From Tachypleus tridentatus (taxonomy: Eukaryota > Arthropoda > Merostomata > Xiphosura > Limulidae): a stretch of 64,000 bases of DNA. Position 1 is the stretch's first letter. Each line of letters opens with the position of its first letter. The DNA is taken from positions 146,973,009 through 147,037,008 of the forward strand of contig NC_134834.1 in assembly GCF_004210375.1 (NCBI RefSeq), given 5' to 3'. Positions 13,023 to 63,787 of this stretch are shown piece after piece. The translations under genes were made by a program, and so were the position numbers. The notes below the pieces were generated by a model, which made no database searches, was not told where the DNA came from, and saw only the letters and a program-made list of their open reading frames with translations.

Positions 13023-13458
13023 AGCACCGACTCATGTTTTCGTGAGAAGGAACAACTTTGATAACATGACAACAAATAGCTAGACCAAAAAAGTTTGTCT
13101 TACCTGGTCCGAGAAAAGGAAGAATCCATTGAGAAACTGTTTAATAAATAGACTAAACAGTGATATTACATGTTTGTAACGAAGCCACGTAATATCACTG
13201 TTTAATAAAGAGACTAAACAGTGATATTACATGTTTGTAACGAAGCCACGTAATATCACTGTTTAATAAATAGACTAAACAGTGATATTACATGTTTGTA
13301 ACAAAGCCACGTAATATCACTGTTTAGTCTATTTATTAAACAGTCTCTCAATGGATGTTTCCTTTTCTCGGACCAGGTAAGACAGACGGTTTTTGGTCTA
13401 GCTATTTGTTGTCATGTTATCAAAGTTGTTCCTTCTCACGAAAACATGAGTCGGTGCT
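13023..13458. mobile_element. fold-back (long palindromic) element with tripled hairpin core
   Basis: The left arm (agcaccgactcatgttttcg at 13023, running to about 13160) recurs as reverse complement in the right arm ending at 13458, with few mismatches over about 130 bp. Between them lies a 61-bp unit repeated three times, each itself a hairpin with 15-bp stems (aaacagtgatattac / gtaatatcactgttt). No open frame is present. This is the structure of a non-autonomous fold-back or MITE-like DNA element. Target duplications at the ends could not be fixed. Confidence 0.8.
13149..13333. repeat. 61-bp tandem hairpin repeat, 3 copies
   Basis: gactaaacag starts at 13151, 13212 and 13273, exactly 61 bp apart. 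Copies differ by single bases (aaatag/aaagag, acgaag/acaaag). Forms the core of the fold-back element. Confidence 0.9.
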
Positions 13459-16137: not shown

Positions 16138-16232
16138 TCAGAGGTGGCGATGGATGATGACCACTAGCTGCCTTAAATCTAGTCTATCACTTCTAAATTA
16201 GACATGGCTAACGGAGATAGTCTTCGCGTAGT
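16138..16232 (+). mobile_element. SINE-A 3' fragment
   Basis: Body from gaggtggcgatggatgatga to tcttcgcgtag only; abuts SINE-B. Confidence 0.7.
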
Positions 16233-16637: not shown

Positions 16638-19600
16638 CACTACTACAACAAACAACAGTATGTTACTGATAACCAAAGTACTACTACAACAAACAACAGT
16701 ATGTTACTGATAACCAAAGTACTACAACAACAAACAACAGTACGTTACTGATAACCAAAGTACCACTAGACAAACAATAGGACGTTACTGATAATCAAAG
16801 TACTACTAGAACAAACAACAGTACGTTACTGATAACCAAAGTACTACCAGAACAAACAACAGTACGTTACTGATAACCAAAGTACTACTAGAACAAACAA
16901 CAGTACGTTACTGATAACCAAAGCACTACTACAACAAACAACAGTACGTTACTGATAACCAAAGTACTACTGCAACAAACAACAGTATGTTACTGATAAC
17001 CAAAGTACTACAACAACAAACAACAGTATGTTACTGATAACCAAAGTACTACTACAACAAACAATAGGACGTTACTGATAACCAAAGTACTACTAGAACA
17101 AACAACAGTAAGTTACTGATAACCAAAGTACTTCCAGAATAAACAACAGTACGTTACTGATAACCAAAGTACCACTACAACAAAGAGTACGTTACTGATA
17201 ACCAAAGTACTACTACAACAAACAGTACGTTACTGATAACCAAAGTACTACCAGAACAAAAAACAGTACGTTACTGATAACCAAAGTACTACCAGAACAA
17301 AAAACAGTACGTTACTGATAACCAAAGCACTACTACAACAAACAACAGTACGTTACTGATAACCAAAGTACCACTAGACAAACAATAGGACGTTACTGAT
17401 AATCAAAGTACTACTAGAACAAACAACAGTACGTTACTGATAACCAAAGTACTACTAGAACAAACAACAGTACGTTACTGATAACCAAAGTACCACTACA
17501 ACAAACAACAGTATGTTACTGATAACCAAAGTACTACTACAACAAACAACAGTACGTTACTGATAACCAAAGTACCACTAGACAAACAATAGGACGTTAC
17601 TGATAATCAAAGTACTACTAGAACAAACAACAGTACGTTAGTGATAACCAAAGTACTACAACAAACAGTACGTTAATAATAACCAAAGTACTACTAGAAC
17701 AAACAACAGTACGTTACTGATAACCAAAGTACTACTACAACAAACAACAGTACGTTACTGATAACCAAAGTACTACTACAACAAACAACAGTACGTTACT
17801 GATAACCAAAGTACTTCCAGAATAAACAACAGTACGTTACTGATAACCAAAGTACCACTACAACAAACAGTACGTTACTGATAACCAAAGTACTACTACA
17901 ACAAACAGTACGTTACTAATAACCAAAGTACCACTACAACAAACAGTACGTTACTGATAACCAAAGTACTACTACAACAAACAGTACGTTACTGATAACC
18001 AAAGTACTACTACAACAAACAGTACGTTACTAATAACCAAAGTACTACTACAACAAACAGTACGTTACTGATAACCAAAGTACTACCAGAACAAAAAACA
18101 GTACGTTACTGATAACCAAAGCACTACTAGAACAAACAACAGTACGTTACTGATAACCAAAGTACTACTAAAACAAACAACAGTACGTTACTGATAACCA
18201 AAGTACTTCCAGAATAAACAACAGTACGTTACTGATAACCAAAGTACCACTACAACAAACAGTACGTTACTAATAACCAAAGTACTACTACAACAAACAA
18301 CAGTAAGTTACTGATAATCAAAGTACTACTAGAACAAACAACAGTACGTTACTGATAACCAAAGTACTACTAGAACAAACAATAGGAAGTTACTGATAAC
18401 CAAAGTACTTCCAGAACAAACAGCAGTACGTTACTGATAACCAAAGTACTACAACAACAAACAACAGTACGTTACTGATAACCAAAGTACTACCAGAATA
18501 AACAGCAGTACGTTACTGATAACCAAAGTACTACCAGAACAAACAACAGTACGTTACTGATAACCAAAGAACTACCAGAACAAACAACAGTACGTTACTG
18601 ATAACCAAAGTACTACCAGAACAAACAACAGTACGTTACTGATAACCAAAGTACTACCAGAACAAACAACAGTACGTTACTGATAACCAAAGTACTACCA
18701 GAACAAACAACAGTACGTTACTGATAACCAAAGTACTACCAGAACAAACAGCAGTACGTCAGTGATAACCAAAGTACTACCAGAACAAACAACAGTACGT
18801 TACTGATAACCAAAGTACCACTACAACAAACAGTACGTTACTAACAACCAAAGTACTACTACAACAAACAACAGTAAGTTACTGATAACCAAAGTACTAC
18901 CACAACAAACAACAGTACGTTACTGATAACCAAAGTACTACCAGAACAAACAACAGTACGTTACTGATAACCAAAGTACTACTAGAACAAACAACAGTAC
19001 GTTACTGATAACCAAAGTACCACTACAACAAACAACAGTATGTTACTGATAACCAAAGTACTACTACAACAAACAACAGTACGTTACTGATAACCAAAGT
19101 ACCACTAGACAAACAATAGGACGTTACTGATAATCAAAGTACTACTAGAACAAACAACAGTACGTTACTGATAACCAAAGTACTACTAGAACAAACAACA
19201 GTACGTTACTGATAACCAAAGTACCACTACAACAAACAACAGTACGTTAGTGATAACCAAAGTACTACTACAACAAACAGTACGTTAATAATAACCAAAG
19301 TACTACTAGAACAAACAACAGTACGTTACTGATAACCAAAGTACTACTACAACAAACAATAGGACGTTACTGATAACCAAAGTACTACTAGAACAAACAA
19401 CAGTAAGTTACTGATAACCAAAGTACTTCCAGAATAAACAACAGTACGTTACTGATAACCAAAGTACCACTACAACAAACAGTACGTTACTGATAACCAA
19501 AGTACTTCCAGAACAAACAACAGTACGTTACTGATAACCAAAGTACCACTACAACAAACAGTACGTTACTGATAACCAAAGTACTTCCAGAATAAACAAC

Positions 19601-22600
19601 AGTACGTTACTGATAACCAAAGTACCACTACAACAAACAGTACGTTACTGATAACCAAAGTACTTCCAGAATAAACAACAGTACGTTACTGATAACCAAA
19701 GTACCACTACAACAAACAGTACGTTACTGATAACCAAAGTACTACTACAACAAACAGTACGTTACTAATAACCAAAGTACTACCAGAACAAACAGTACGT
19801 TACTGATAACCAAAGTACTACTACAACAAACAGTACGTTACTGATAACCAAAGTACTACCAGAACAAAAAACAGTACGTTACTGATAACCAAAGTACCAC
19901 TACAACAAACAGTACGTTACTGATAACCAAAGTACTACTACAACAAACAGTACGTTACTAATAACCAAAGTACCACTACAACAAACAGTACGTTACTGAT
20001 AACCAAAGTACTACCAGAACAAAAAACAGTACGTTACTGATAACCAAAGCACTACTAGAACAAACAACAGTACGTTACTGATAACCAAAGTACTACTAAA
20101 ACAAACAACAGTACGTTACTGATAACCAAAGTACTTCCAGAATAAACAACAGTACGTTACTGATAACCAAAGTTACACTACAACAAACAGTACGTTACTA
20201 ATAACCAAAGTACTACTACAACAAACAACAGTAAGTTACTGATAACCAAAGTACTACTACAACAAACAACAGTACGTTACTGATAACCAAACTACTACCA
20301 GAACAAACAACAGTACGTTACTGATAACCAAAGTACTACTAGAACAAACAACAGTACGTTACTGATAACCAAAGTACTACTAGAACAAACAATAGGACGT
20401 TACTGATAACCAAAGTACTTCCAGAACAAACAGCAGTACGTTACTGATAACCAAAGTACTACAACAACAAACAACAGTACGTTACTGATAACCAAAGTAC
20501 TACCAGAACAAACAGCAGTACGTTACTGATAACCAAAGTACTACTAGAACAAACAACAGTACGTTACTGATAACCAAAGCACTACTACAACAAACAACAG
20601 TACGTTACTGATAACCAAAGTACCACTAGACAAACAATAGGACGTTACTGATAATCAAAGTACTACTAGAACAAACAACAGTACGTTACTGATAACCAAA
20701 GTACTACCAGAACAAACAACAGTACGTTACTGATAACCAAAGTACTTCCAGAACAAACAGCAGTACGTCAGTGATAACCAAAGTACTACCAGAAAAAACA
20801 ACAGTACGTTACTGATAACCAAAGTACCACTACAACAAACAACAGTACGTTACTGATAACCAAAGTACTACTAGAACAAACAATAGGACGTTACTGATAA
20901 CCAAAGTACTTCCAGAACAAACAGCAGTACGTTACTGATAACCAAAGTACTACAACAACAAACAACAGTACGTTACTGATAACCAAAGTACTACCAGAAC
21001 AAACAGCAGTACGTTACTGATAACCAAAGTACTACTAGAACAAACAACAGTACGTTACTGATAACCAAAGCACTACTACAACAAACAACAGTACGTTACT
21101 GATAACCAAAGTACCACTAGACAAACAATAGGACGTTACTGATAATCAAAGTACTACTAGAACAAACAACAGTACGTTACTGATAACCAAAGTACTACCA
21201 GAACAAACAACAGTACGTTACTGATAACCAAAGTACTTCCAGAACAAACAGCAGTACGTCAGTGATAACCAAAGTACTACCAGAAAAAACAACAGTACGT
21301 TACTGATAACCAAAGTACCACTAGACAAACAATAGGACGTTACTGATAATCAAAGTACTACTAGAACAAACAACAGTACGTTACTGATAACCAAAGTACT
21401 ACCAGAACAAACAACAGTACGTTACTGATAACCAAAGTACTACCAGAACAAACAGCAGTACGTCAGTGATAACCAAAGTACTACCAGAAAAAACAACAGT
21501 ACGTTACTGATAACCAAAGTACCACTAGACAAACAATAGGACGTTACTGATAATCAAAGTACTACTAGAACAAACAGCAGTACGTCAGTGATAACCAAAG
21601 TACTACTAGAACAAACAACAGTACGTTACTGATAACCAAAGCACTACTACAACAAACAACAGTACGTTACTGATAACCAAAGTACCACTAGACAAACAAT
21701 AGGACGTTACTGATAATCAAAGTACTACTAGAACAAACAACAGTACGTTACTGATAACCAAAGTACTACCAGAACAAACAACAGTACGTTACTGATAACC
21801 AAAGTACTTCCAGAACAAACAGCAGTACGTCAGTGATAACCAAAGTACTACCAGAAAAAACAACAGTACGTTACTGATAACCAAAGTACTACTAGAACAA
21901 ACAACAGTACGTTACTGATAACCAAAGTACTACTAGAACAAACAATAGGACGTTACTGATAACCAAAGTACTTCCAGAACAAACAGCAGTACGTTACTGA
22001 TAACCAAAGTACTACAACAACAAACAACAGTACGTTACTGATAACCAAAGTACTACCAGAACAAACAGCAGTACGTTACTGATAACCAAAGTACTACTAG
22101 AACAAACAACAGTACGTTACTGATAACCAAAGCACTACTACAACAAACAACAGTACGTTACTGATAACCAAAGTACCACTAGACAAACAATAGGACGTTA
22201 CTGATAATCAAAGTACTACTAGAACAAACAACAGTACGTTACTGATAACCAAAGTACTACCAGAACAAACAACAGTACGTTACTGATAACCAAAGTACTT
22301 CCAGAACAAACAGCAGTACGTCAGTGATAACCAAAGTACTACCAGAAAAAACAACAGTACGTTACTGATAACCAAAGTACCACTAGACAAACAATAGGAC
22401 GTTACTGATAATCAAAGTACTACTAGAACAAACAACAGTACGTTACTGATAACCAAAGTACTACCAGAACAAACAACAGTACGTTACTGATAACCAAAGT
22501 ACTACCAGAACAAACAGCAGTACGTCAGTGATAACCAAAGTACTACCAGAAAAAACAACAGTACGTTACTGATAACCAAAGTACCACTACAACAAACAGT

Positions 22601-24689
22601 ACGTTACTAATAACCAAAGTACTACTACAACAAACAACAGTAAGTTACTGATAACCAAAGTACTACCAGAATAAACAACAGTACGTTACTGATAACCAAA
22701 GTACTACTACAACAAACAACAGTACGTTACTGATAACCAAAGTACTACCAGAACAAACAACAGTACGTTACTGATAACCAAAGTACTACTAGAACAAACA
22801 ACAGTACGTTACTGATAACCAAAGTACTACTAGAACAAACAACAGTACGTTACTGATAACCAAAGTACTACTAGAACAAACAACAGTACGTTACTGATAA
22901 CCAAAGTACTACTACAAGAAACAATAGGACGTTACTGATAACCAAAGTACTACTAGAACAAACAACAGTAAGTTACTGATAACCAAAGTACTTCCAGAAT
23001 AAACAACAGTACGTTACTGATAACCAAAGTACTACACCAACAAACAACAGTACGTTACTGATAACCAAAGTACTACCAGAACAAACAACAGTACGTCAGT
23101 GATAACCAAAGTACCACTAGACAAACAATAGGACGTTACTGATAATCAAAGTACTACTAGAACAAACAACAGTACGTTACTGATAACCAAAGTACTACCA
23201 GAACAAACAACAGTACGTTACTGATAACCAAAGTACTACCAGAACAAACAGCAGTACGTCAGTGATAACCAAAGTACTACCAGAAAAAACAACAGTACGT
23301 TACTGATAACCAAAGTACCACTAGACAAACAATAGGACGTTACTGATAATCAAAGTACTACTAGAACAAACAGCAGTACGTCAGTGATAACCAAAGTACT
23401 ACTAGAACAAACAACAGTACGTTACTGATAACCAAAGCACTACTACAACAAACAACAGTACGTTACTGATAACCAAAGTACCACTAGACAAACAATAGGA
23501 CGTTACTGATAATCAAAGTACTACTAGAACAAACAACAGTACGTTACTGATAACCAAAGTACTACCAGAACAAACAACAGTACGTTACTGATAACCAAAG
23601 TACTTCCAGAACAAACAGCAGTACGTCAGTGATAACCAAAGTACTACCAGAAAAACAACAGTACGTTACTGATAACCAAAGTACTACTAGAACAAACAAC
23701 AGTACGTTACTGATAACCAAAGTACTACTAGAACAAACAATAGGACGTTACTGATAACCAAAGTACTTCCAGAACAAACAGCAGTACGTTACTGATAACC
23801 AAAGTACTACAACAACAAACAACAGTACGTTACTGATAACCAAAGTACTACCAGAACAAACAGCAGTACGTTACTGATAACCAAAGTACTACTAGAACAA
23901 ACAACAGTACGTTACTGATAACCAAAGCACTACTACAACAAACAACAGTACGTTACTGATAACCAAAGTACCACTAGACAAACAATAGGACGTTACTGAT
24001 AATCAAAGTACTACTAGAACAAACAACAGTACGTTACTGATAACCAAAGTACTACCAGAACAAACAACAGTACGTTACTGATAACCAAAGTACTACCAGA
24101 ACAAACAGCAGTACGTCAGTGATAACCAAAGTACTACCAGAAAAAACAACAGTACGTTACTGATAACCAAAGTACCACTACAACAAACAGTACGTTACTA
24201 ATAACCAAAGTACTACTACAACAAACAACAGTAAGTTACTGATAACCAAAGTACTACCAGAATAAACAACAGTACGTTACTGATAACCAAAGTACTACTA
24301 CAACAAACAACAGTACGTTACTGATAACCAAAGTACTACCAGAACAAACAACAGTACGTTACTGATAACCAAAGTACTACTAGAACAAACAACAGTACGT
24401 TACTGATAACCAAAGTACTACTAGAACAAACAACAGTACGTTACTGATAACCAAAGTACTACTAGAACAAACAACAGTACGTTACTGATAACCAAAGTAC
24501 TACTACAAGAAACAATAGGACGTTACTGATAACCAAAGTACTACTAGAACAAACAACAGTAAGTTACTGATAACCAAAGTACTTCCAGAATAAACAACAG
24601 TACGTTACTGATAACCAAAGTACTACACCAACAAACAACAGTACGTTACTGATAACCAAAGTACTACCAGAACAAACAACAGTACGTTA
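16638..24689. repeat. 8-kb satellite array, 38-41 bp monomers
   Basis: About 200 head-to-tail copies. The common 41-bp monomer reads agtactactagaacaaac, aacagtacgttac, tgataaccaa. Variants include a 38-bp form lacking three bases (caaacagtacg), a 40-bp form (ccactagacaaacaatagga, always followed by gataatcaa), and forms with acttccag or cgtcagtg. Variant order repeats: the 40-bp marker recurs at 21122, 21326 and 21530 (204 bp, five monomers) and at 20631, 21122, then 21692, 22184 and 23489, 23979 (about 491 bp). Blocks of about 1.6 kb are duplicated at the right end. TGA/TAA in every monomer keeps the frames closed. The edges are abrupt, the right one at ttatatattttcaac. Confidence 0.97.
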
Positions 24690-25992: not shown

Positions 25993-26258
25993 TGCTTTTG
26001 AATTTCGCGCAAAGCTGCAGAGGGCTATCTGCGCTAACAATCCCTAATTTAGCAGTGAAAGACCAGGGGGAAGGCAGCTAATCATCACCACCCACTGTCA
26101 ACTCTTGGGCTACTCTTTTAGCAGCAACTAGTGGGATTGATCTCACCTTTTAACGCCCTCACGGCTGAAAGGGCGAGCATGTTTGGTGTGACGATGTTTC
26201 GAACCCGTGACTTAGGATTACGAATTAAACGTCTTAACCACCTGGTTATGCCAGATCG
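25993..26258 (-). mobile_element. SINE-A, near full length
   Basis: Head at right (cacctggttatgccag); moderately diverged. The open frame over its left end is not a gene. Confidence 0.88.
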
Positions 26259-30747: not shown

Positions 30748-31310
30748 AGAGTACATTATGATGACAACATGGTGAACACTACAATAAAATATGATGGTGA
30801 ACAGCTCAGTACAGCATAATGTCAACATTATCATGACAACATGGTGAACACTACAGTACAGTATGATGGTGAACATTGCAGTACAGTATAATGACAACAT
30901 GGTGAACACTACAGTACACTATCTTAACAACATGGCGAACACTTCAGTACAGTATGATGGTGAACATTGCAATACAGTATAATGACAACATGGTGAACAC
31001 TACAGTACAGTATGATGGTGAACATTGCAGTACAGTATAATGACAACATGGTGAACACTACAGTACATTATCTTAACAACATGGCGAACACTACAGTGCA
31101 GTATGATGGTGAACATTGCAGTACAGTATAATGACAACATGGTGAACACTACAGTACACTATCTTAACAACATGGCGAACACTACAGTACAGTATGATGG
31201 TGAACATTGCAGTACAGTATAATGACAACATGGTGAACACTACAGTACACTATCTTAACAACATGACGAACACTACAGTACAGTATGATGGCAACGCGGT
31301 AAACACTATG
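30748..31310. repeat. minisatellite with 91-bp period and about 30-bp subunits
   Basis: Three related subunits alternate: gtatgatggtgaacattgca, gtataatgacaacatggtga, and ctatcttaacaacatggcga. The first subunit occurs at 30861, 30952, 31010, 31101 and about 31192 (91, 58, 91, 91 bp apart). The minus open frame at 30718-30909 is a product of the repeat. Confidence 0.9.
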
Positions 31311-32972: not shown

Positions 32973-35284
32973 CAGTGGTTCTTAACGTCGGTTCAATTGA
33001 ACCCCAGGGTTTCGGTGAGTCAGTCTCAGGAGTTCGGCGGAGGTCAAGACACACACATTGTATCCGTTCAATTCACCCCACTCATATGATTCGTGACGTC
33101 ATGCTCCACTTGGCCATCATTGGCTGCAGATGATCACGTCACATTACTGGCCTTAATATCTGTGCTGCAGGGAACTTCGTGCGCTTAGCAGTCGACTTGT
33201 GACTGCAGTAATCGTGGGTCATTTGTGATTTTTTTTCCTAATCTTTCAATCCCTTCATACTAATTATGTCGAGCAAACACAGAAAGTGGTCGAACGAATA
33301 CGTAAAATGTGGATTCACGTGTATAACGGAACATGATGGGAGTCAGCGTCCTCAATGCATGATTTGCGATACCAAGTTGAGCAATTTTAGTCTAGCACTG
33401 GCAAAACTAAGAGAACACTTCCCTAAAGCTGCATGTAGATGGGAAATACAAGAACACAACGCTTGCTAAATTCAAGGTAAAGAGAGCCAGGTTCGATGAA
33501 AAGGCTACTTTGCCTGTTCTCGGCTTTGTACTCACCAACAAACCGATAATCACAGCATCGTACGAAGTTGCGTACTTCATCGCAAAGCAGGGCAAACCAC
33601 ACACCATTGGTAAAGCACTCGTAAAACCAGCTGCGTTGAAGATGGCGAATATCATGCTGGGAAAAGCTGCTGAAAATAAGTTATCCCAAATTCCTCTTTC
33701 AAATGACACCATCAGCAGCAGAATAGATGACATCAGCGATGACATCTTGGCTCAAGTAGTTGCAGATCTGATTTCAAGCACAGCAAAATTCAGCCTTCAA
33801 CTCGACGAGACCACCGACGTTTCCAATCTAAGCCAGCTTGTTGTACTCTTGGACTATGTGAAGAACGACGAGATAAAAGAATTTTTATTTTATAAGCCTC
33901 ACAACAAAAACTAAGGCAACCGATGTGAAGAAACTTGTGGATGACTTCTTGAGAGACAATAATCTTTCGTGGGATATGGTTGCTGCAGTTTGTTCGGACG
34001 GAGCTCCAGTCATGCTGGGACGAAACTGGTTTTGGTGCGCTGGTAGAAGCCGATGCACCACACATCATTGTTACACACTGTGTTCTGCACAGGCATGCGT
34101 TGGCAACAAAAACATTGCCTTCGAAACTGGTAAAAGTATTAAAATTGTAGTGAAATGTGTGAACTTTGTACGAAATAGTGCCTTGAAGCACCGCATCTTC
34201 AAAGAGCTGTGTAATGAAATGGACTCTGAATTCGAGGTGCTTCTGTACCATTCTAACATTCGGTGGTTATTCCGGGGAAAGGTTCTGTTTTTGCGAGAGC
34301 ACCAACATTGTCATGCAGATTGCTTCGATAAATCTGAGTTCATTCTCATTGTGGAGTACATGGCCGATATCTTCAATGCTCTCAATCATCTCAATCAACA
34401 GATGCAGGGCGGTGGAGTCAACATCATTGAAGCAGAAGAAAACCTGAAGGCTTTTCAAAAAACAGCTACCGTTATGGACACGACGAAAAGAGAATGATAA
34501 ATTCGCAAACATTCCCCTGCTGGACGACTGTGTAAGTAAGATCGAAGATGTGTCTGAAATCGGAGACATTTCTGTATCCGGGGAACTGAAACAAGCAATT
34601 GCCATGCACTTAGATGAGCTCACAAAGTATCTCAACGGACATTTCCCGACTAGAGAGTCATATCCAGCATGGGTAAGACAGCCATTCACGTTTAGTGTTG
34701 CGACAGCAGATGTCAATGATGAATAACTCGACGAAATCCTTGAACTTCAGCAGAGCCAGGATCAACGGCAACTTTACAGAACAACAACGTTCTCAACGTT
34801 TTGGTGTCACCAAATCGTAGCATACCCTCTTATTGCTAAGAAAGCCCTTGAAATACTCGTACCGTTTGGTACAACGTATCTTTGCGAGCAATCCTTTTCG
34901 AGAATGGTAGACATAAAAAAGGAAGAAAAGGAACAGACTTTGTTGCGAAAATGATATGAGAATGGCACTTGCCAAGATGAAGCCGCGCATTTTTGAACTT
35001 GTCTCTGAAAGGCAACAGCAAAAGTCACATTGATTTTCAGTAAATATTCATTGAGTTATGTTTTTGTTTTTGTGTGAAATTCATGTTTTGTTGGTTTTGT
35101 TCTTTGAACACAGTGATATTGTGTGCAATTGATGCATGGTTCATTTTGTGCACAAATAAAATATCTACTTTTATTTTGAATTTGAAAAAAAAAAATATTT
35201 TATTTTACTAATTACGAAGGGTTCAGTGAATGCAAGTACGAAACTTCCAGGGTTCAGTACCTTCAACAAAGTTAAGAACCACTG
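32973..35284 (+). mobile_element. hAT DNA transposon, 2312 bp, decayed
   Basis: Terminal inverted repeats CAGTGGTTCTTAAC (32973-32986) and its complement (35271-35284); similarity continues inward with gaps (aaccc/gggtt). Carries one plus-strand transposase remnant. AATAAA at 35155-35160 lies near the 3' end. The termini belong to a widespread hAT group in animals as I recall it. Confidence 0.95.
33266..35031 (+). pseudogene. hAT transposase remnant, BED finger and ZBED5-like
   Basis: Reads through at least four pieces in different frames: 33266-33469 with an N-terminal BED-type finger start (CMIC, then LREHF); 33510-33914 with SLQLDETTDVSNLS, a typical first catalytic Asp region; 33925-34497 with VCSDGAPVMLGRN, the second acidic region; and 34508 onward with the hATC-like end YLCEQSFSRM. 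Frame changes occur near 33470-33500, 33915 and 34490, with in-frame stops near 34724 and 34952. It cannot encode an active enzyme. Related to the transposases from which vertebrate ZBED5-type genes were domesticated. Antisense frames over it are shadows. Confidence 0.9.
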
Positions 35285-48444: not shown

Positions 48445-51400
48445 ATGCTGGTAAGCTAGATTAATTTATTGTAAATCTTACAAAGCACTTTAAAGAATAC
48501 AACTTACTAAAACAGTTCATTATTCCGATTGTATTTCTCAAGCTCTGTATTTTCAGATTTATCTGCCATTATTCACTCACTATTGAAACACAAAGGTTCT
48601 TAATTTTAGTCTAGCGTTTTTACTAAGGTTTTCAGCTGATAAACGAAGATAAAAATGTCTGTATTACAACATTAACATAATCTGTTAGTAGTCTAAATTA
48701 AAAATTTTCTATTTATATTCAGTTAAGTAATTTGTTCATATTTTTCGACAGGTGTGGTGCATTTTTGTCGTACAGTCGCTTAAAAATTCAAAAATAAAAC
48801 TAATTAATTAACTTATTCAGAATAATTTAATACTATTTAACTGTGGTAACAAGTTCTATTGGTTATTTATCGATCGAGTAAATTCGTGTGTACGATAACT
48901 AATACTGACTTGAATAGTTCGTTAACAGCTCAACCATTGAACTAACTGAAAATTGACTCAATGCTTCATTGATTTTGGTATCTATAATATATCTTTAATT
49001 CCTGATATTGTGCAAAGTATCCTGATCATTATCATTTAGAAACATTGTGGGTATTCTAGCACTAGTCTTTTAACCACAATGAAATATATTTCTCACCGAT
49101 TGACGTAAACTTTAACACTTGTTTGTTTGTAATTACGCGCAAAGCTACACAATGGGGTAGCTGTGATCTGCCCACTACGGGTATCAAAGTTCAGTTTCTG
49201 GTGGTGTGAGTCCGCATAAATACTGCTGTGCCACTGGGGAGCAAAAGTTTAACGAACTATTAATATTCACCATTCAACTATTGTTGTAAAATAATTACTT
49301 ATTTTTGAGATGTCATTGAAACTACAAGTTTTAAATGAGGTGTAAAAACGGTGTACACGTTGGTTATAATTACTCTAGATGCAGTAATCCGCGAAATAGG
49401 ACACAACGGCCTAATCCATCTTGAAGCAAAAAATCCAAAAAACAGTAAATAGTGATTAAATCCCTCTTGATGCAATAATCCATGAAACAGTAAACAGTGG
49501 TTTAATCCATCTTGATGCAATAATCCATGAAACAGTAAACGGTGGCCACAGTCACTCTGGAGGCGGAACTGCGTGAATCTGTACAGGGTGGTTACAATCT
49601 CTCTTGAAGGAATAATCTATGCAACAGGACACGGTTGCTTCAACATCTCTTAAAATGATAACCTCTTTAATAGTTCATGGATGACTCAAATCACTTTGAA
49701 TTTTCAACCACGTTTATTTCAAAATATACGTAAACTCCAATCTTTCTTGAGGTAACAACCCCTCTTCTCCTGAAGAAGTGTTTATGTAGTCCACTATTGA
49801 AGAGTATTATTAGAAATTTCAGTTTAAGCCAAATTTTCTAATCATCTCTTTATCTTAATATTTGAATAATGGATGGTCCTTTATTTTCTGACAAGATTAA
49901 TTACAACGGATACGAAAACACTAGTGGCCCGGTATGGCCAGGTGGGGTAAGGCCTGCGACTCGTAATCTGAGGGTCGCGGGTTCGCATCCCCGTCGCGCC
50001 AATTGAAGGGGTATGTTTCGAACCTCAAGGGTCATTTTCGGGGCTTAAAGGATTGTGTTTGAAGTCTCAAGAGCCATATTGGGACTGAAATGGCCACATT
50101 TGGAGTTTCAAGGGTTATATATGAAATCTTGATGTTCCATGTTTGTGGGAACTTGTTAATTTAAGAAATATCGTTTTAAGACAACTTACCAGATGTCATC
50201 TCTCATAGCTGAAACAATACACTACCTGACACACAAAAATTTTATACGCGTCTTTCAAGATAAACTTTAGAACGCTTGTAATACACACATATATATATCT
50301 TCCGCCCTAGACAAAGTTCAAAACTTATGTTACAGTGTTTGTATCTTTTACATTAGATAAGCCATGAAACAAGTTTTGTTTCTTTCTATGCAAACTTTAG
50401 AAAACATGTTCATGTGCATGTAAGATCCCAGGTAAACTATATTACCATGTATAAATATATATTACTGCAGGTAAACTATGTAACACACATTACCATGTAT
50501 AAATATGTATTACTCCAGGTAAACTTTAGAATACCTATTATTTAGCCAATAAATGCGGCCCGGCATGATCACGTGGTACGGTCGCTCGAACTGCAATCTC
50601 AGAGTCGCGGGTGCGAATCCCTGTCTCACCAAACATGCTCACCCTTTTAGCCGTGGGGGCGTTATAATATTACGGTCAATCCCAATATTCGTTGGTGAAA
50701 GTTGGCCATGAGTGGCGATGACTATCTGCCTTTTGTATACTCAGTCTTACCCTGTTAAATTGGGGATGGCTAGCGCAAATAGCCCTTGTGTAACTTTACG
50801 CGAAATTCAAAAACAAACCAGCGATAAACTAGGAAAATGAAATTATTTTCAATAAAATTCACTTTCAAATTTTTCTTCTTAAACACTTATATTTTCAGAA
50901 GTTTCCTAAAATTCTGACTCTCTCTTTTTTTTTTCCAGAAATTCCGGCTGATGCTTGCTTTACTTTTACCTTTGGCTACTGCTACTCAATCATACTTTAA
51001 AATTGGACCGCTTGGGACTGATACTTACAGTTTCGGCTATGACGTCAATGAACCTCGAGAGGCCCCGAGACTGCTGAGGGAAGAAACGAGACTAGAAGAT
51101 GGGACTGTGATTGGTCGATACGGCTATTCCGATCCAACAGGAAGTTTCCGAATGTATCGGTATCACGCAGGCCCAGAAGGCTACTTTGCAAGTGAGATAA
51201 CTAGAGAGGTTTGTTTGTTATACAACAATGACTTTATTTTAGGTTTTTCCCTATAAAACTAATCGAACGTTTCACAGTATTTGTTGTTCTGTAAATTTCT
51301 AAAGTGTCAAGAGTTTTGATCCAAACAAAAACACTTTACTTTATTATACAATAAACAATAACAAATCTAAGAAAGAAAAAGGGGGTTTGGCGTTAAAATA

Positions 51401-53054
51401 ATTGATGGATTTGAATAAGCATATAAAATATATACAGTTATGTAATCGAAACTAACACATCTAACTTCTATTAATAGGTTGAAAAGGCCTAGTTAAATAT
51501 GGCTGCTCATAGAATAAGAAAAAATACATTCCAGTCAGTGTAAAACTACCTGAAAATATTAAACAGATAAAATACTTCACACGAAGAGTTTGTGTTGTTT
51601 TTTTTTGGAATTTCGCACAAAGCTACTCGAGGGCTATCTGTGCTAGCCGTCCCTAATTTAGTAGCGTAAGACTAGAGGAAAGGCAGCTAGTCATCACCAC
51701 CCACCGCCGATTCTTGGGTTACTCTTTTACCAACGAATATTGGGATTGACCGTCACATTATAACGCCCCCACGGCTGAAAGGGCGAGCATGTTTGGCGCG
51801 ACGGGGATGCGAACCCGCGACCGTCAGATTACGAGTTGCACGCCTTAACAACCAGTCTCAACTAATCAGTATAACCAGTTTTCATAAGCCTAGAAACAAC
51901 CAGTCCCAACTAATCATTATAACCAGTTTTCATAAGCCTCGAAACAACCAGTCTCAACTAATCATTATAACCAGTTTTCATAAGCCTAGAAACAACCAGT
52001 CCCAACTAATCATTATAACCAGTTTTCATAAGCCTAGAAACAACCAGTCCCAACTAATCATTATAACCCGTTTTCATAAGCCTAGAAAACAACCAGTCCC
52101 AACTAATCATTATAACCCGTTTTCATAAGCCTAGAAAACAACCAGTCCCAACTAATCATTATAACCAGTTTTCATAACCCTAGAAAACAACCAGTCCCAA
52201 CTAATCATTATAACCAGTTTTCATAAGCCTAGAAACAACCAGTCCCAACTAATCATTATAACCAATTTTCATAAGCCTAGAAAACAACCAGTCCCAACTA
52301 ATCATTATAACCAGTTTGTTTTAATTTAGATGCGACTAAGACGTGTTTTCGTTGATATTTGTTCAGGGAGAAATTTTTTGTTTAAATTTTTAATATGACT
52401 CCTATATTATATTGTATTGTATTGTATTATATCATATTATATCATATCATATCATATCGAGTCCTGTAATTTACAAAGTTATCAACAACAAACAGTTGTG
52501 TAGCTAAGTAGTTTAAAGATTTGCGTGTAAAAAGCAAATGGACCCAACTGATCCAGAGTTAAACGAGTTATCATTATATTTCGTGGTTATAATCGTTGTT
52601 AATTATCCGATCCATGTATGTACGCCTTGTGGATTTTGTATTCTATTACTTGTACCGGTTCTTTTATGTTGCTCTGTGAAGGTGTTTGATTTTTGTTTTC
52701 GAAATGTCTTGCTGAAATATAAAGTGAGGAGTAAACCCCTAAATTATTTTTTGTCAATCGGTCTAGAACGATCAAAAAGAAGAAATCGCTCGCCCTGCTG
52801 AGACCAGATTCGAACCCAATGTCCTTTCTGAACCTGAAGTGATGGAGAAAGAAAGACAGAGGCCTAGTTCACAGCTGTACACCGACGCCGACCATTTGGA
52901 ATCTCGCCCAGCGATTCCTTTAAATTATTTGCTAAATAAACAGCCACTCAAATATGCCAGTTTCGAACCAATCATTGATGAAAGCGTTAAAGAAACTATC
53001 GGAGGCGTTGAAGATGAAACTGAATTAAAATTAGGAGATGATCAGTTGTCATGA
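48445..53054 (+). CDS. secreted cuticular protein, chitin-binding (RR-type) domain, 3 exons
   Basis: Joined from 48445-48450 (ATG CTG, donor GTAAGC), 50939-51208 (acceptor ttttttttttccag, donor GAG/GTTTGT) and 52767-53054 (acceptor tcaatcggtctag, stop TGA), all phase 0, about 187 residues. Residues 1-18 form a signal peptide (MLKFRLMLALLLPLATAT). Residues about 30-86 match the chitin_bind_4 domain: YSFGYDV, RLEDGTVIGRYGYSDPTG, then YRYHAGPEGYFA. The second half (exon 3, from residue 93) is polar and acidic, Pro-containing, with no domain I recognise. The expected role is a structural protein secreted by epidermis into cuticle. The ATG at 50951 inside exon 2 would give a shorter signal peptide without exon 1; the phase-0 micro-exon pattern shared with the gene at 60994 makes the longer form more likely. 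Exon 3 is less certain than exon 2. Confidence 0.8.
48451..49119. other. intron 1 of the first cuticle gene, left part
   Basis: AT-rich and repeat-poor. The rest of intron 1 (to 50938) holds the SINEs and minisatellites listed separately. Confidence 0.55.
49120..49243 (-). mobile_element. SINE-B copy in intron
   Basis: attacgcgcaaagctacaca, cactacgggtatcaaagttc, gctgtgccactggggagc. Complete tail and head. Confidence 0.85.
49345..49690. repeat. minisatellite, about 57-60 bp unit, in intron
   Basis: About six copies of atccatcttgatgcaataat then ccatgaaacagtaaacagtg. The middle two are nearly identical. The minus open frame is a by-product. Confidence 0.85.
49691..49924. other. intron sequence without recognised feature
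   Basis: AT-rich. Confidence 0.4.
49925..50002 (+). mobile_element. isolated SINE-A tRNA-like head
   Basis: tggcccggtatggccaggtg with B box gggttcgcatcccc, ending at gtcgcgcca. The body is absent. It looks like a 77-base tRNA-derived unit, but the D and anticodon arms do not pair well, so it is a truncated SINE, not a tRNA gene. Confidence 0.85.
50013..50145. repeat. tandem repeat, about 41 bp unit, beside the SINE head
   Basis: Three copies of gtttgaagtctcaagagcca then tattgggactgaaatgg. Confidence 0.65.
50378..50535. repeat. tandem repeat, about 60 bp unit
   Basis: aggtaaactatattaccatg then tataaatatatattactg, about 2.5 copies. Confidence 0.7.
50557..50819 (+). mobile_element. SINE-A, near full length, in intron
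   Basis: gcggcccggcatgatcacgt to acgcgaaattcaaaaacaaa; ends only 120 bp before exon 2 of the cuticle gene. Confidence 0.92.
51597..51850 (-). mobile_element. SINE-A, end replaced by minisatellite
   Basis: Tail and body near consensus; in the head the sequence passes from cacgccttaac straight into the 48-bp repeat. Lies in intron 2 of the cuticle gene. Confidence 0.9.
51848..52318. repeat. minisatellite, 48-49 bp unit, about 9.5 copies
   Basis: Unit: aaacaaccagtcccaact, aatcattataacc, agttttcataagcctag. Very uniform copies, so young. The 111-codon frame through it is created by the repeat. Confidence 0.95.
52408..52459. repeat. pentanucleotide microsatellite
   Basis: tattg units giving way to atatc units. 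Confidence 0.85.
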
Positions 53055-60993: not shown

Positions 60994-63787
60994 ATGATTC
61001 AGGTAAGCATGTATGAACCCTAACGTGTAATAATGTAACCAGTCGCACCCGATCAATAAATGGTGTTAGTTCTATACGGTCAAGTTTTAATTTGAATCAA
61101 AATAAGTGGAACTGAGACAGGAAAGTACAGTTCATAAAACACGATCTGATTTCATCTGTGCGTAAATTAAAATTAAAACTAAATAATGGACTGTAGTTGA
61201 TATAACACTAGAGTATTTTCTATTTAAAATATTAATCTATTTTCGCTACTGGTAGCTAAAAATTGTTTTGCTCATCCAAGTTAGACTAATAATTTTCCAA
61301 CTGTTTGTAATCTTGTTTGTTTTTTAAAATGACTTTCGTGTCAGCTTCCTAATTACCTTTCACAGAATCATTGAAATGGGATTAATAAATTCCTATTGTA
61401 GGATGTAGAGTTAACTCAGTTTATTCGCTCTTAAAAATTCCTCGGTGGACCTACGATGTTAAAATCCTGAATTCGATTATCCGGGTTGGACACAGCAGAT
61501 AGCCCAATTTGACTTTGTTCTAAGATAAACAAACAAACTGATGGCTTATAATGCTAAAAAAGAAGTGGTTTCGATACGAAGGCAGAGCACAAATAGTTCA
61601 ATGTAACTTTGATCTAAAGAACAAACAGACAAACCACTTCTAAAAATTCATTTAATGTTTGAGATATTGGAATGTAAGTTTTAAAATGAATTGTTCCACT
61701 TCATTCCGACAAAAGTGGAATTTATGCTTCATAGAAGCACTCATACCTCTACAAACAAGCCAAATTTTTAATTTAATGACAACGCGTTATCTTGTTGAAA
61801 CGATAGTATTTTATATTTTGACCTAGTGTTTCGATCCTTTTCTTATGAATTTAAATTATTTTATTTTTGTAACTCTAACATAACTTCTAAGATTTTAAAT
61901 AAAAGTGTATACGTTTCAAAGTCATTCTAATAAATAACGCCCATATTTGTATTTAATAATTTATTTTGATTATTGGTTCAGATATTTAGATGTTGCACGA
62001 GAAATAATGATGAAAAGAAGATACTTGGTTAGACCTAAACTAAAACTAAACTCCTTAGTACGCATACTTTGCTTAGGATGTATTGTTCTGTCAGTTGGAT
62101 ACCCTTCCCCTTAAAGACATTTTCGGTCGTAAATCCAATAACATCTCACGAAGTTGTAATAGCTTAAGAGATTTATGTTAGTTTCAAACCTATCTACTAA
62201 GCGTAAAATACAAAACGATTAATTATGTTTGTCATAGGGCATCAATATTAGGCTTATTATATTTTTAAATATTGTATTTTATACCTTGTCCTTAGAAATT
62301 TTCAAGAATTAAAAGACAAGATAATAACAGTATTCTAACCGCACTACGCTCGTCATGTTCACTCAATCTAGAACTCCAGAATAAACACAGTAATGGTCAA
62401 GATACTATTTATATGAGCCATTTGAAACAACCGGAAACTGACGAAGCATGATTATAGTGTAAAACAACCTCTATAATAGAAATATGATAATAATGAAAAA
62501 ATGATTTAATAAATATTCTAACTGGAAATTACATTATTTGCCCTAAGATTACAATTTTTAATATCGTCTCAGGTACTTATTAAATACAATTTTCATTTAT
62601 TTTGCAGGTTTTGCTTCCATTTCTTTGTGCTGTTTGTCTGGCACATTCTACTGCTCCATTTTACACGTTCTATACAGATGGCAGTAGGTTACTTCAGTAC
62701 GAGGCTGGAACTCTAGCCAGGAGGAACTTTCGAGAAGAAGTCACCAGACCAGATGGAACCATTGTAGGAAGGTATGGTTTCCACGACCCCACAGGGCACT
62801 TGCACGTTGTGCAATATCATGCAGGTAGACAGGGTTATGTTGCCAAAGGAGATACCGGGTTTATTATGGTAGCACCCAAGAATTGGGAACCGTGGATGAG
62901 GAGAAAAAAAGTGAACAAACTGTGAAGGAGAGAGACATGAAAGGTCCAAAGCCTGAAGATGGCATTATAGGAGATTATGATTCGATGGATGAAGGAGAAA
63001 ATGCGAAAAAAGAAAGTGACGTGAAAAAAGACGCAACAGAAGACACAAAGAAAGATGAAAAGGATGAAAAAACTGACGCTATGGTTACAGATGCAACAGA
63101 AGACATGGAAAAAGACGTAAAAGACAAAACAACTGATGATATGGATAAAACGGAAGACACAAAAGATACATCAACCTCTGATGATGAAAAAACAGTCGTT
63201 GAGAAAAAAGAGATGAAAGACGAAAAGGTTAAGGAAGACGGGGAAGCTTCGCAATCGAAACCTGAAGAACCATACGAGACGGACCCAGAAATAACAGCAC
63301 TTTTTTCAATTCCTGAATATGGCCGCCGACGTTTAACTATTAGTCAGTCTGATAAAAGAAAATTAATGAAAAAGATGAGAGTAGGATTTATACTTCTCAC
63401 AATATCTTCAATGCCCCCATTTCTCCTGGTTTTGTAAAGTGGAGCGATCCTCAAAATCAGCCCCTGAACTGGCCTCATCCAGTTTTCAGATTTCAAGATT
63501 CATCTACTGGCCAGTACATTCCTTTCGAACACCCGTGGATAATCGGGAAACCGGCTACTAAAGAGAAAAAACCTGTTCAAAACACTTTACCTTTTCACTA
63601 TGTTGGATCCCAGAAGAAGGAATTCACAAACCAAGATCTAAATAGGGGTGATATTTCTCCACTAAAGACAACAACTTTCCAGTACACTCACCCATCTAGA
63701 TTCTACTACCCACAGCCTGTTCTCCCTTTCGCCCACAGACCAGACAGATCTCCATTTCTGGTTCCCGGGTACCATTTGTATGCTTAA
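60994..63787 (+). CDS. secreted cuticular protein with acidic segment, 2 exons, frame-disrupted
   Basis: Exon 1 60994-61002 (ATG ATT CAG, donor GTAAGC) and exon 2 from 62608 (acceptor ttcatttattttgcag), phase 0. Signal peptide MIQVLLPFLCAVCLAHSTA. Residues about 40-82 match chitin_bind_4: TRPDGTIVGRYGFHDPTG, then VVQYHAGRQGYVA. This frame stops at 62923. A second frame, open from 62829, continues with a Lys/Asp/Glu/Thr-rich segment (repeats like DATEDTKKDEKDEKTD) and then PYETDPEITALFSIPEYGRR. A third frame from about 63356 gives NIFNAPISPGFVKWSDP and a Pro/Tyr/Phe-rich C-terminus ending LVPGYHLYA, TAA at 63785-63787. Both switches equal one missing base and can be placed at A runs (62904-62910 and 63369-63373), so sequencing or assembly error is likely; a recent pseudogene is the alternative. 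Intended length about 396 residues. Paralogue of the gene at 48445. Confidence 0.75.
61003..61436. other. intron of the second cuticle gene, left part
   Basis: AT-rich; nothing recognised besides the donor. Confidence 0.5.
61437..61540 (+). mobile_element. SINE-B copy in intron
   Basis: tcctcggtggacctacgatg, gacacagcagatagcccaat, tail gataaacaaacaaactg. Confidence 0.65.
61541..61637 (+). mobile_element. SINE-B copy, head-to-tail with previous
   Basis: atggcttataatgctaaaaa, tggtttcgatacgaaggcag, tail gaacaaacagacaaacc. Confidence 0.65.
61638..62607. other. intron of the second cuticle gene, right part
   Basis: AT-rich, no repeats recognised, ending in a good acceptor at 62606-62607. Confidence 0.5.

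Follow-up and report, generated by a model that had tools for sequence, protein, structure and literature searches.

RESULTS

A tandem array of 41-bp units and its genomic setting

The window, as we call the whole 64-kb stretch of Tachypleus tridentatus DNA analyzed here, contains a tandem array that TRF delimits to positions 16639 to 24689 (+ strand), with a period of 41, 198.7 copies, and 90% matches, in line with an original prediction of an ∼8-kb array at this place. The array and the features around it are as follows.

16639..24689, + strand: tandem array, ∼199 x 41 bp, non-coding (TRF, monomer split, ORF list)
16146..16231, - strand: nearest dispersed-repeat fragment left of the array (repeat search)
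25996..26238, + strand: nearest dispersed-repeat copy right of the array (repeat search)
50918-51253, + strand: Chitin_bind_4 (cuticle protein) exon (Pfam, E 1.4e-08)
62584-62922, + strand: Chitin_bind_4 (cuticle protein) exon (Pfam, E 4.8e-08)

The array has sharp edges on both sides. When the rest of the window was scanned with a monomer profile, the best + strand score was within the range of shuffled maxima, and a - strand site near 25.17 kb scored 8.0, compared with a maximum of 5.1 in eight shuffles and 43.8 for the true unit. Matches to the monomer elsewhere in the window were only 11 to 17 bp long. In the self-comparison of the window, matches of 60 bp or more numbered at least 80. A dispersed ∼260-bp repeat, which we take to resemble one of horseshoe crabs, occupies 36 merged intervals (7651 bp) of the 64-kb window, none of them inside the array; simple arithmetic from the window density gives an expectation of about five intervals in 8 kb. 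This absence fits a young array or, alternatively, the loss of insertions by exchange. Pfam models were searched against 10 of the 93 open fragments (E 0.01), of which two matched Chitin_bind_4 and eight matched nothing; the two exons, which by themselves make an arthropod source very probable, lie ∼11 kb from each other and ∼26 and ∼38 kb from the array. The window also holds 19 further tandem arrays after hand-merging of TRF rows, with a total of 3796 bp. Neither terminal repeats in ∼4 kb of each flank nor a target-site duplication at the array edges was found. Given the sharp edges, the absence of the monomer elsewhere in the window, the cuticle-protein exons, and the dispersed repeats on both sides, the placement of the array leans toward local.

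A and C predominate on the + strand of the array (46.1% A, 23.0% C, 12.2% G, and 18.7% T), whose A+T content is 65%. We rejected the idea of a coding array, since the sole open fragment of at least 70 amino acids that overlaps it sits at its right edge. A hairpin in the unit, suggested by nested inverted stretches in its letters, was also rejected because the DNA of three unit versions folds no better than shuffles (z -0.75 to -0.94). A single CENP-B-like box pattern had 0 matches in both orientations. Rfam gave no match across the whole window at the gathering score and none at E 1 in the scanned interval 20300-21300. Viral contigs contained 0 matches to a 27-base piece of the monomer and 0 to a word of the dispersed repeat, the letters of neither occur in the papers searched, and no title listed for chelicerate satellites concerned this array.

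Other repeats of the window differ in kind. At 13023-13458, a foldback element with arms at 13023-13233 and 13247-13458 (89.7% alike when inverted) encloses a 61-bp unit in about three copies, each with inverted repeats of its own (fold z -10.75). It resembles a MITE that contains a tandem repeat, and its 24 microRNA and small-RNA matches, all below the gathering score, probably reflect the hairpin. The small array at 30753-31308 has nested periods of 25, 33, 58, 72, 91, and 149 bp, with 95% matches for the 91-bp period (TRF). Broken open fragments at 33411-34951, four of which had no Pfam match at E 0.01, presumably resemble a hAT/ZBED-type transposase. At 51589-52317, a 48-bp array (9.7 copies, 96% matches) starts no more than a few bases from where a dispersed-repeat copy stops, which suggests that the end of a mobile element seeded this minisatellite.

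Monomer variants recur in a nonrandom order

The ∼199 units of 41 bp lie head to tail (TRF consensus, ACTACTAGAACAAACAACAGTACGTTACTGATAACCAAAGT). Using a conserved AACCAAAG-type anchor as the cut point, we counted 197 whole monomers between anchors, with the first unit and the terminal part-unit left out. Most monomers are 41 bp long (n = 156), and the others have 38 bp (n = 24), 40 bp (n = 16), or 35 bp (n = 1), a range of 35 to 41 bp that falls within that of the minisatellite class (roughly 10 to 100 bp). Altogether they represent 49 exact types. Most of the variation is common to several monomers: 21 variant states occur in at least 10 of the 197 monomers and 13 in just one or two, in lists that include columns made arbitrary by aligning the 3-bp and 6-bp shorter monomers. 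Variation appears lower in the 3′ part of the unit than in the 5′ part, a possible hint of constraint that would count against our main reading. A four-gamete count (54 of 171 column pairs) was discarded, because the alignment sets the 3-bp deletion in the wrong columns. The sole difference between type 48 (23642-23681) and type 6 is one A in an A run, possibly a sequencing error.

The order of these variants is far from random. The longest repeated run comprises 17 monomers, compared with a maximum of 6 in 500 shuffles, and repeated 6-monomer words have 76 start positions, compared with a mean of 0.004 in the same number of shuffles. The split into exact types, akin to the monomer clustering that the original prediction had proposed as its own check, found recurring rather than random variant orders. 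A first-order Markov chain (300 runs) matched the longest run (maximum, 18; mean, 8.9) and the repeated 4-monomer words (92 observed; mean, 83) but not the repeated 12-monomer words, of which there are 28 (maximum, 14). The marker monomer, type 2 (15 of 197), recurs with a spacing of 204 bp, corresponding to five monomers, at 21112, 21316, and 21520, from 22174 to 22378, and from 23112 to 23316; with a spacing of 491 bp, corresponding to 12 monomers, from 20621 to 21112 and from 21683 to 22174; with a spacing of 490 bp from 23479 to 23969; and with a spacing of 1527 bp from 17573 to 19100. These starts lie 9 to 14 bases below those given earlier, the monomer being cut elsewhere, and they reproduce the predicted spacings of 204 and ∼491 bp as well as the recurrence of 17586 at 19114.

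Nested block duplications dominate the right part of the array

Comparison of the array with itself divides it into two parts and resolves the following duplications.

16639..20304, + strand: apparently older part, few exact block copies, weaker duplications (block comparison)
20305..24689, + strand: apparently younger part, nearly all in near-identical block duplications (block comparison)
19424..19739, + strand: two-monomer unit in the apparently older part, types 3 5 42 5 3 5 3 5 (monomer split)
20343-20832 = 20834-21323, + strand: tandem 12-monomer (491 bp) duplication, 0 mismatches in 490 bp
20527-21527 = 21589-22589, + strand: 26-monomer (1062 bp) block duplication, 2 mismatches in 1001 bp
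21083..21576, + strand: 5-monomer (204 bp) unit, ∼2.4 tandem copies, 1 mismatch
21304..24687, + strand: ∼44-monomer (1796 bp) block duplication, copies differing by about five monomers (DNA and monomer-type comparison)

The last of these had been predicted as a recurrence of ∼21440-23060 at ∼23235-24660, and we recovered it as three near-identical segments: 21304-21859 = 23100-23655 (0 mismatches in 556 bp), 21856-22385 = 23651-24180 (1 mismatch), and 22349-23096 = 23940-24687 (0 mismatches in 748 bp). Since the offset drops from 1796/1795 to 1591 bp along the block, its copies differ by about five monomers. The 26-monomer duplication was absent from the earlier list. Over all block copies, the DNA offsets are 204, 490/491, 571, 1062, 1553, 1591, and 1795/1796 bp, which fit whole numbers of monomers, as is expected of any such array. 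In the left part, the best block is 17941-18363 = 19869-20291 (6 mismatches in 423 bp; offset, 1928 bp), and a gapped comparison of monomer types aligned 17812-18487 with 19661-20497 at a score of 27.9, compared with a maximum of 9.1 for the same type of score in 12 shuffles of the left half. The presence of diverged block copies on the left alongside near-identical ones on the right suggests that both halves grew alike, the left one earlier.

Matches scoring at least 230 cover 99.9% of 20639-24689. The right half contains 23 monomer types among 99 monomers and the left half 40 among 98, and the proportion of monomers in repeated 5-monomer words is 97.0% on the right versus 7.1% on the left, so that the greater homogenization predicted for the right half holds both for its types and for its block copies. 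Mean monomer identity differs slightly (91.3% right, 90.0% left); an alternative alignment gives mean differences of 12.4% on the left and 9.0% on the right, a larger contrast, but it misplaces the 3-bp deletion and is less preferred.

To this asymmetry we compared simulations of turnover under uniform, identity-dependent, and polar models, keeping runs with similar coverage. Of these, 0 of 789 under the uniform model, 4 of 725 under the identity-dependent model, and 1 of 845 under the polar model attained the observed value, as did ∼1 of 724 runs of an earlier uniform set (derived from fractions). Mean simulated asymmetry was 0.31 to 0.48 for the polar, 0.19 to 0.32 for the uniform, and 0.22 to 0.33 for the identity-dependent model. 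The models are crude, none of them explains the asymmetry well, and they do not single out polarity. A one-sided turnover hotspot, at which variants are added at the right end in a conversion-like manner under the control of the right flank, is a possible but doubtful reading of these data. It would agree with the contrast between 97.0% and 7.1%, with the failure of uniform turnover to produce it in the main set, and with the highest mean asymmetry being that of the polar model, and polar mutation is known at human minisatellites, as an excerpt of PMC3356730 describes. However, the polar model itself succeeded in a single run, compared with four for the identity-dependent one, and a single allele cannot tell a hotspot from one recent burst. 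More specifically, that conversion-like turnover of blocks in an arthropod minisatellite should be strongly one-sided and under the control of the right flank strikes us as quite improbable. The straightforward reading is that a small number of large events occurred in a recent burst close to the right end.

The array is at most at an early higher-order stage

The original prediction spoke of a satellite with nested higher-order organization. Its nested block copying and recurring orders stand, but units of three or more monomers reach at most ∼2.4 tandem copies (∼2 for the 12-monomer and ∼2.4 for the 5-monomer unit), short of the many tandem copies of a multi-monomer unit by which higher-order repeats are defined. 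The larger "periods" reappear as passengers of bigger duplications, and the recurring orders come from few nested block duplications. Higher-order organization in the strict sense is therefore not established, and the array is a case of nested block duplication, at most at an early higher-order stage. The most regular case is the run of dimers at 19424-19739, in which the unit has 2.5 copies by exact type and 4 once a single base difference is tolerated; this short stretch is truly higher-order.

It is also conceivable, though unlikely, that the array represents an outlying euchromatic piece, or the edge, of a satellite family that is abundant, forms true higher-order repeats, and is centromeric or pericentromeric elsewhere. 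Monomers within a unit are on average 91.1% (12-monomer) and 88.8% (5-monomer) alike, and the likeness between the first pair of units is 99.0% and 99.5%, respectively, with 91.7% for the second pair of 5-monomer units. Taken with the within-unit values, those for the first pairs resemble the pattern of alpha satellite, whose monomers are 70 to 90% alike within a higher-order unit and whose units are >95% alike, according to the excerpted text of PMC5615363. The same text describes dimeric higher-order repeats as usual in beetles, which recalls the four-copy dimer found here, and short euchromatic arrays of heterochromatic satellites are known (PMC10048060, in part). The array may be one small part of a more extensive satellite family, a possibility that counts against a local reading. 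Against such a family stand the low tandem copy number of all units of three or more monomers, the lack of a match to the one CENP-B-like pattern used, and the sharp ends of the array in a region that carries cuticle-protein exons as well as dispersed repeats.

DISCUSSION

We consider it likely that the locus is a local, non-coding, minisatellite-like array, probably without a function of its own. Its variant map, its block copies and their near-identity, and the difference in divergence between its halves are read directly from the sequence, and the contrast between the right-side blocks (0 to 2 mismatches in 490 to 1001 bp) and the best left block (6 in 423 bp) favors an account by block copying. 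We infer that the array is young and grew by unequal exchange or conversion of blocks. On this account, a 41-bp unit would have been amplified in place, and point mutations together with small deletions would have diversified its copies into a few dozen variants. Blocks of 2 to ∼44 monomers may then have been copied in monomer register, whether by unequal exchange, by conversion, or by replication slippage, the latest large events all falling between 20.3 kb and the right edge.

The exact large copies may partly be an assembly artefact, produced if two alleles, or reads joined wrongly, were lined up in tandem. That this explains the large right-side copies as such is improbable: stretches of 748 bp and 556 bp with 0 mismatches would be expected of it, as would the difference in A-run length between block copies, which is typical of sequencing error, but one large copy is about five monomers longer than the other, and the left half shows the same block copying in a more diverged form. 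It is very unlikely that the array belongs to a transposable element as its internal repeat, an idea for which the 61-bp tandem repeat carried by the foldback element near 13.0-13.5 kb provides a parallel, since the similarity between ∼4 kb of the left flank and ∼4 kb of the right is limited to dispersed repeats and to matches no longer than 27 bp (E 0.047 or weaker), and the 45 bases of the left edge and the 65 of the right edge have no 6- to 8-base word in common.

As a probable local minisatellite-like array, the locus can be compared feature by feature with systems already described. Variant-repeat maps exist for the human minisatellites MS32, MS205, MS31A, D1S80, and MSY1 (excerpts of PMC3356730 and PMC2599865). 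As portrayed there, these have units of 9 to 100 bp, a readable map of base-substitution variants, changes of multi-repeat blocks, and one end that is apparently more active, all of which are also seen here. Unlike them, the present array is 8 kb long and has 65% A+T, whereas most of the human ones are GC-rich (MSY1 has 75% A+T), and it is known from one sequence, whereas they are known from alleles and germline mutation. With the higher-order repeats of alpha satellite, in the passages available from PMC5615363, it has in common distinct monomers within a block and near-identical blocks; it differs in its monomer of 41 bp, compared with ∼170 bp, in blocks of three or more monomers with at most ∼2.4 tandem copies (one dimer has 4), and in a context known from the window alone. 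The euchromatic satellites of Tribolium and the 1.688 satellite of Drosophila, as far as an excerpt of PMC10048060 covers them, are likewise tandem arrays among genes and mobile elements, but they are euchromatic copies of abundant families and often have few monomers, in contrast to the ∼199 found at one place here.

The array is thus genuine but of an ordinary kind, and we saw nothing in the window that would point to a centromere. It provides a clear worked example of an array of short units expanding through nested duplication of blocks, at a stage when regular higher-order repeats have yet to form. If other alleles were to change only at the right end, the array would be a usable locus for studying polar minisatellite turnover in arthropods; otherwise, it would mean little beyond the caution that recurring variant orders need not imply a centromere. 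If one-sided turnover were true, the polar mutation of human minisatellites would also occur far from mammals.
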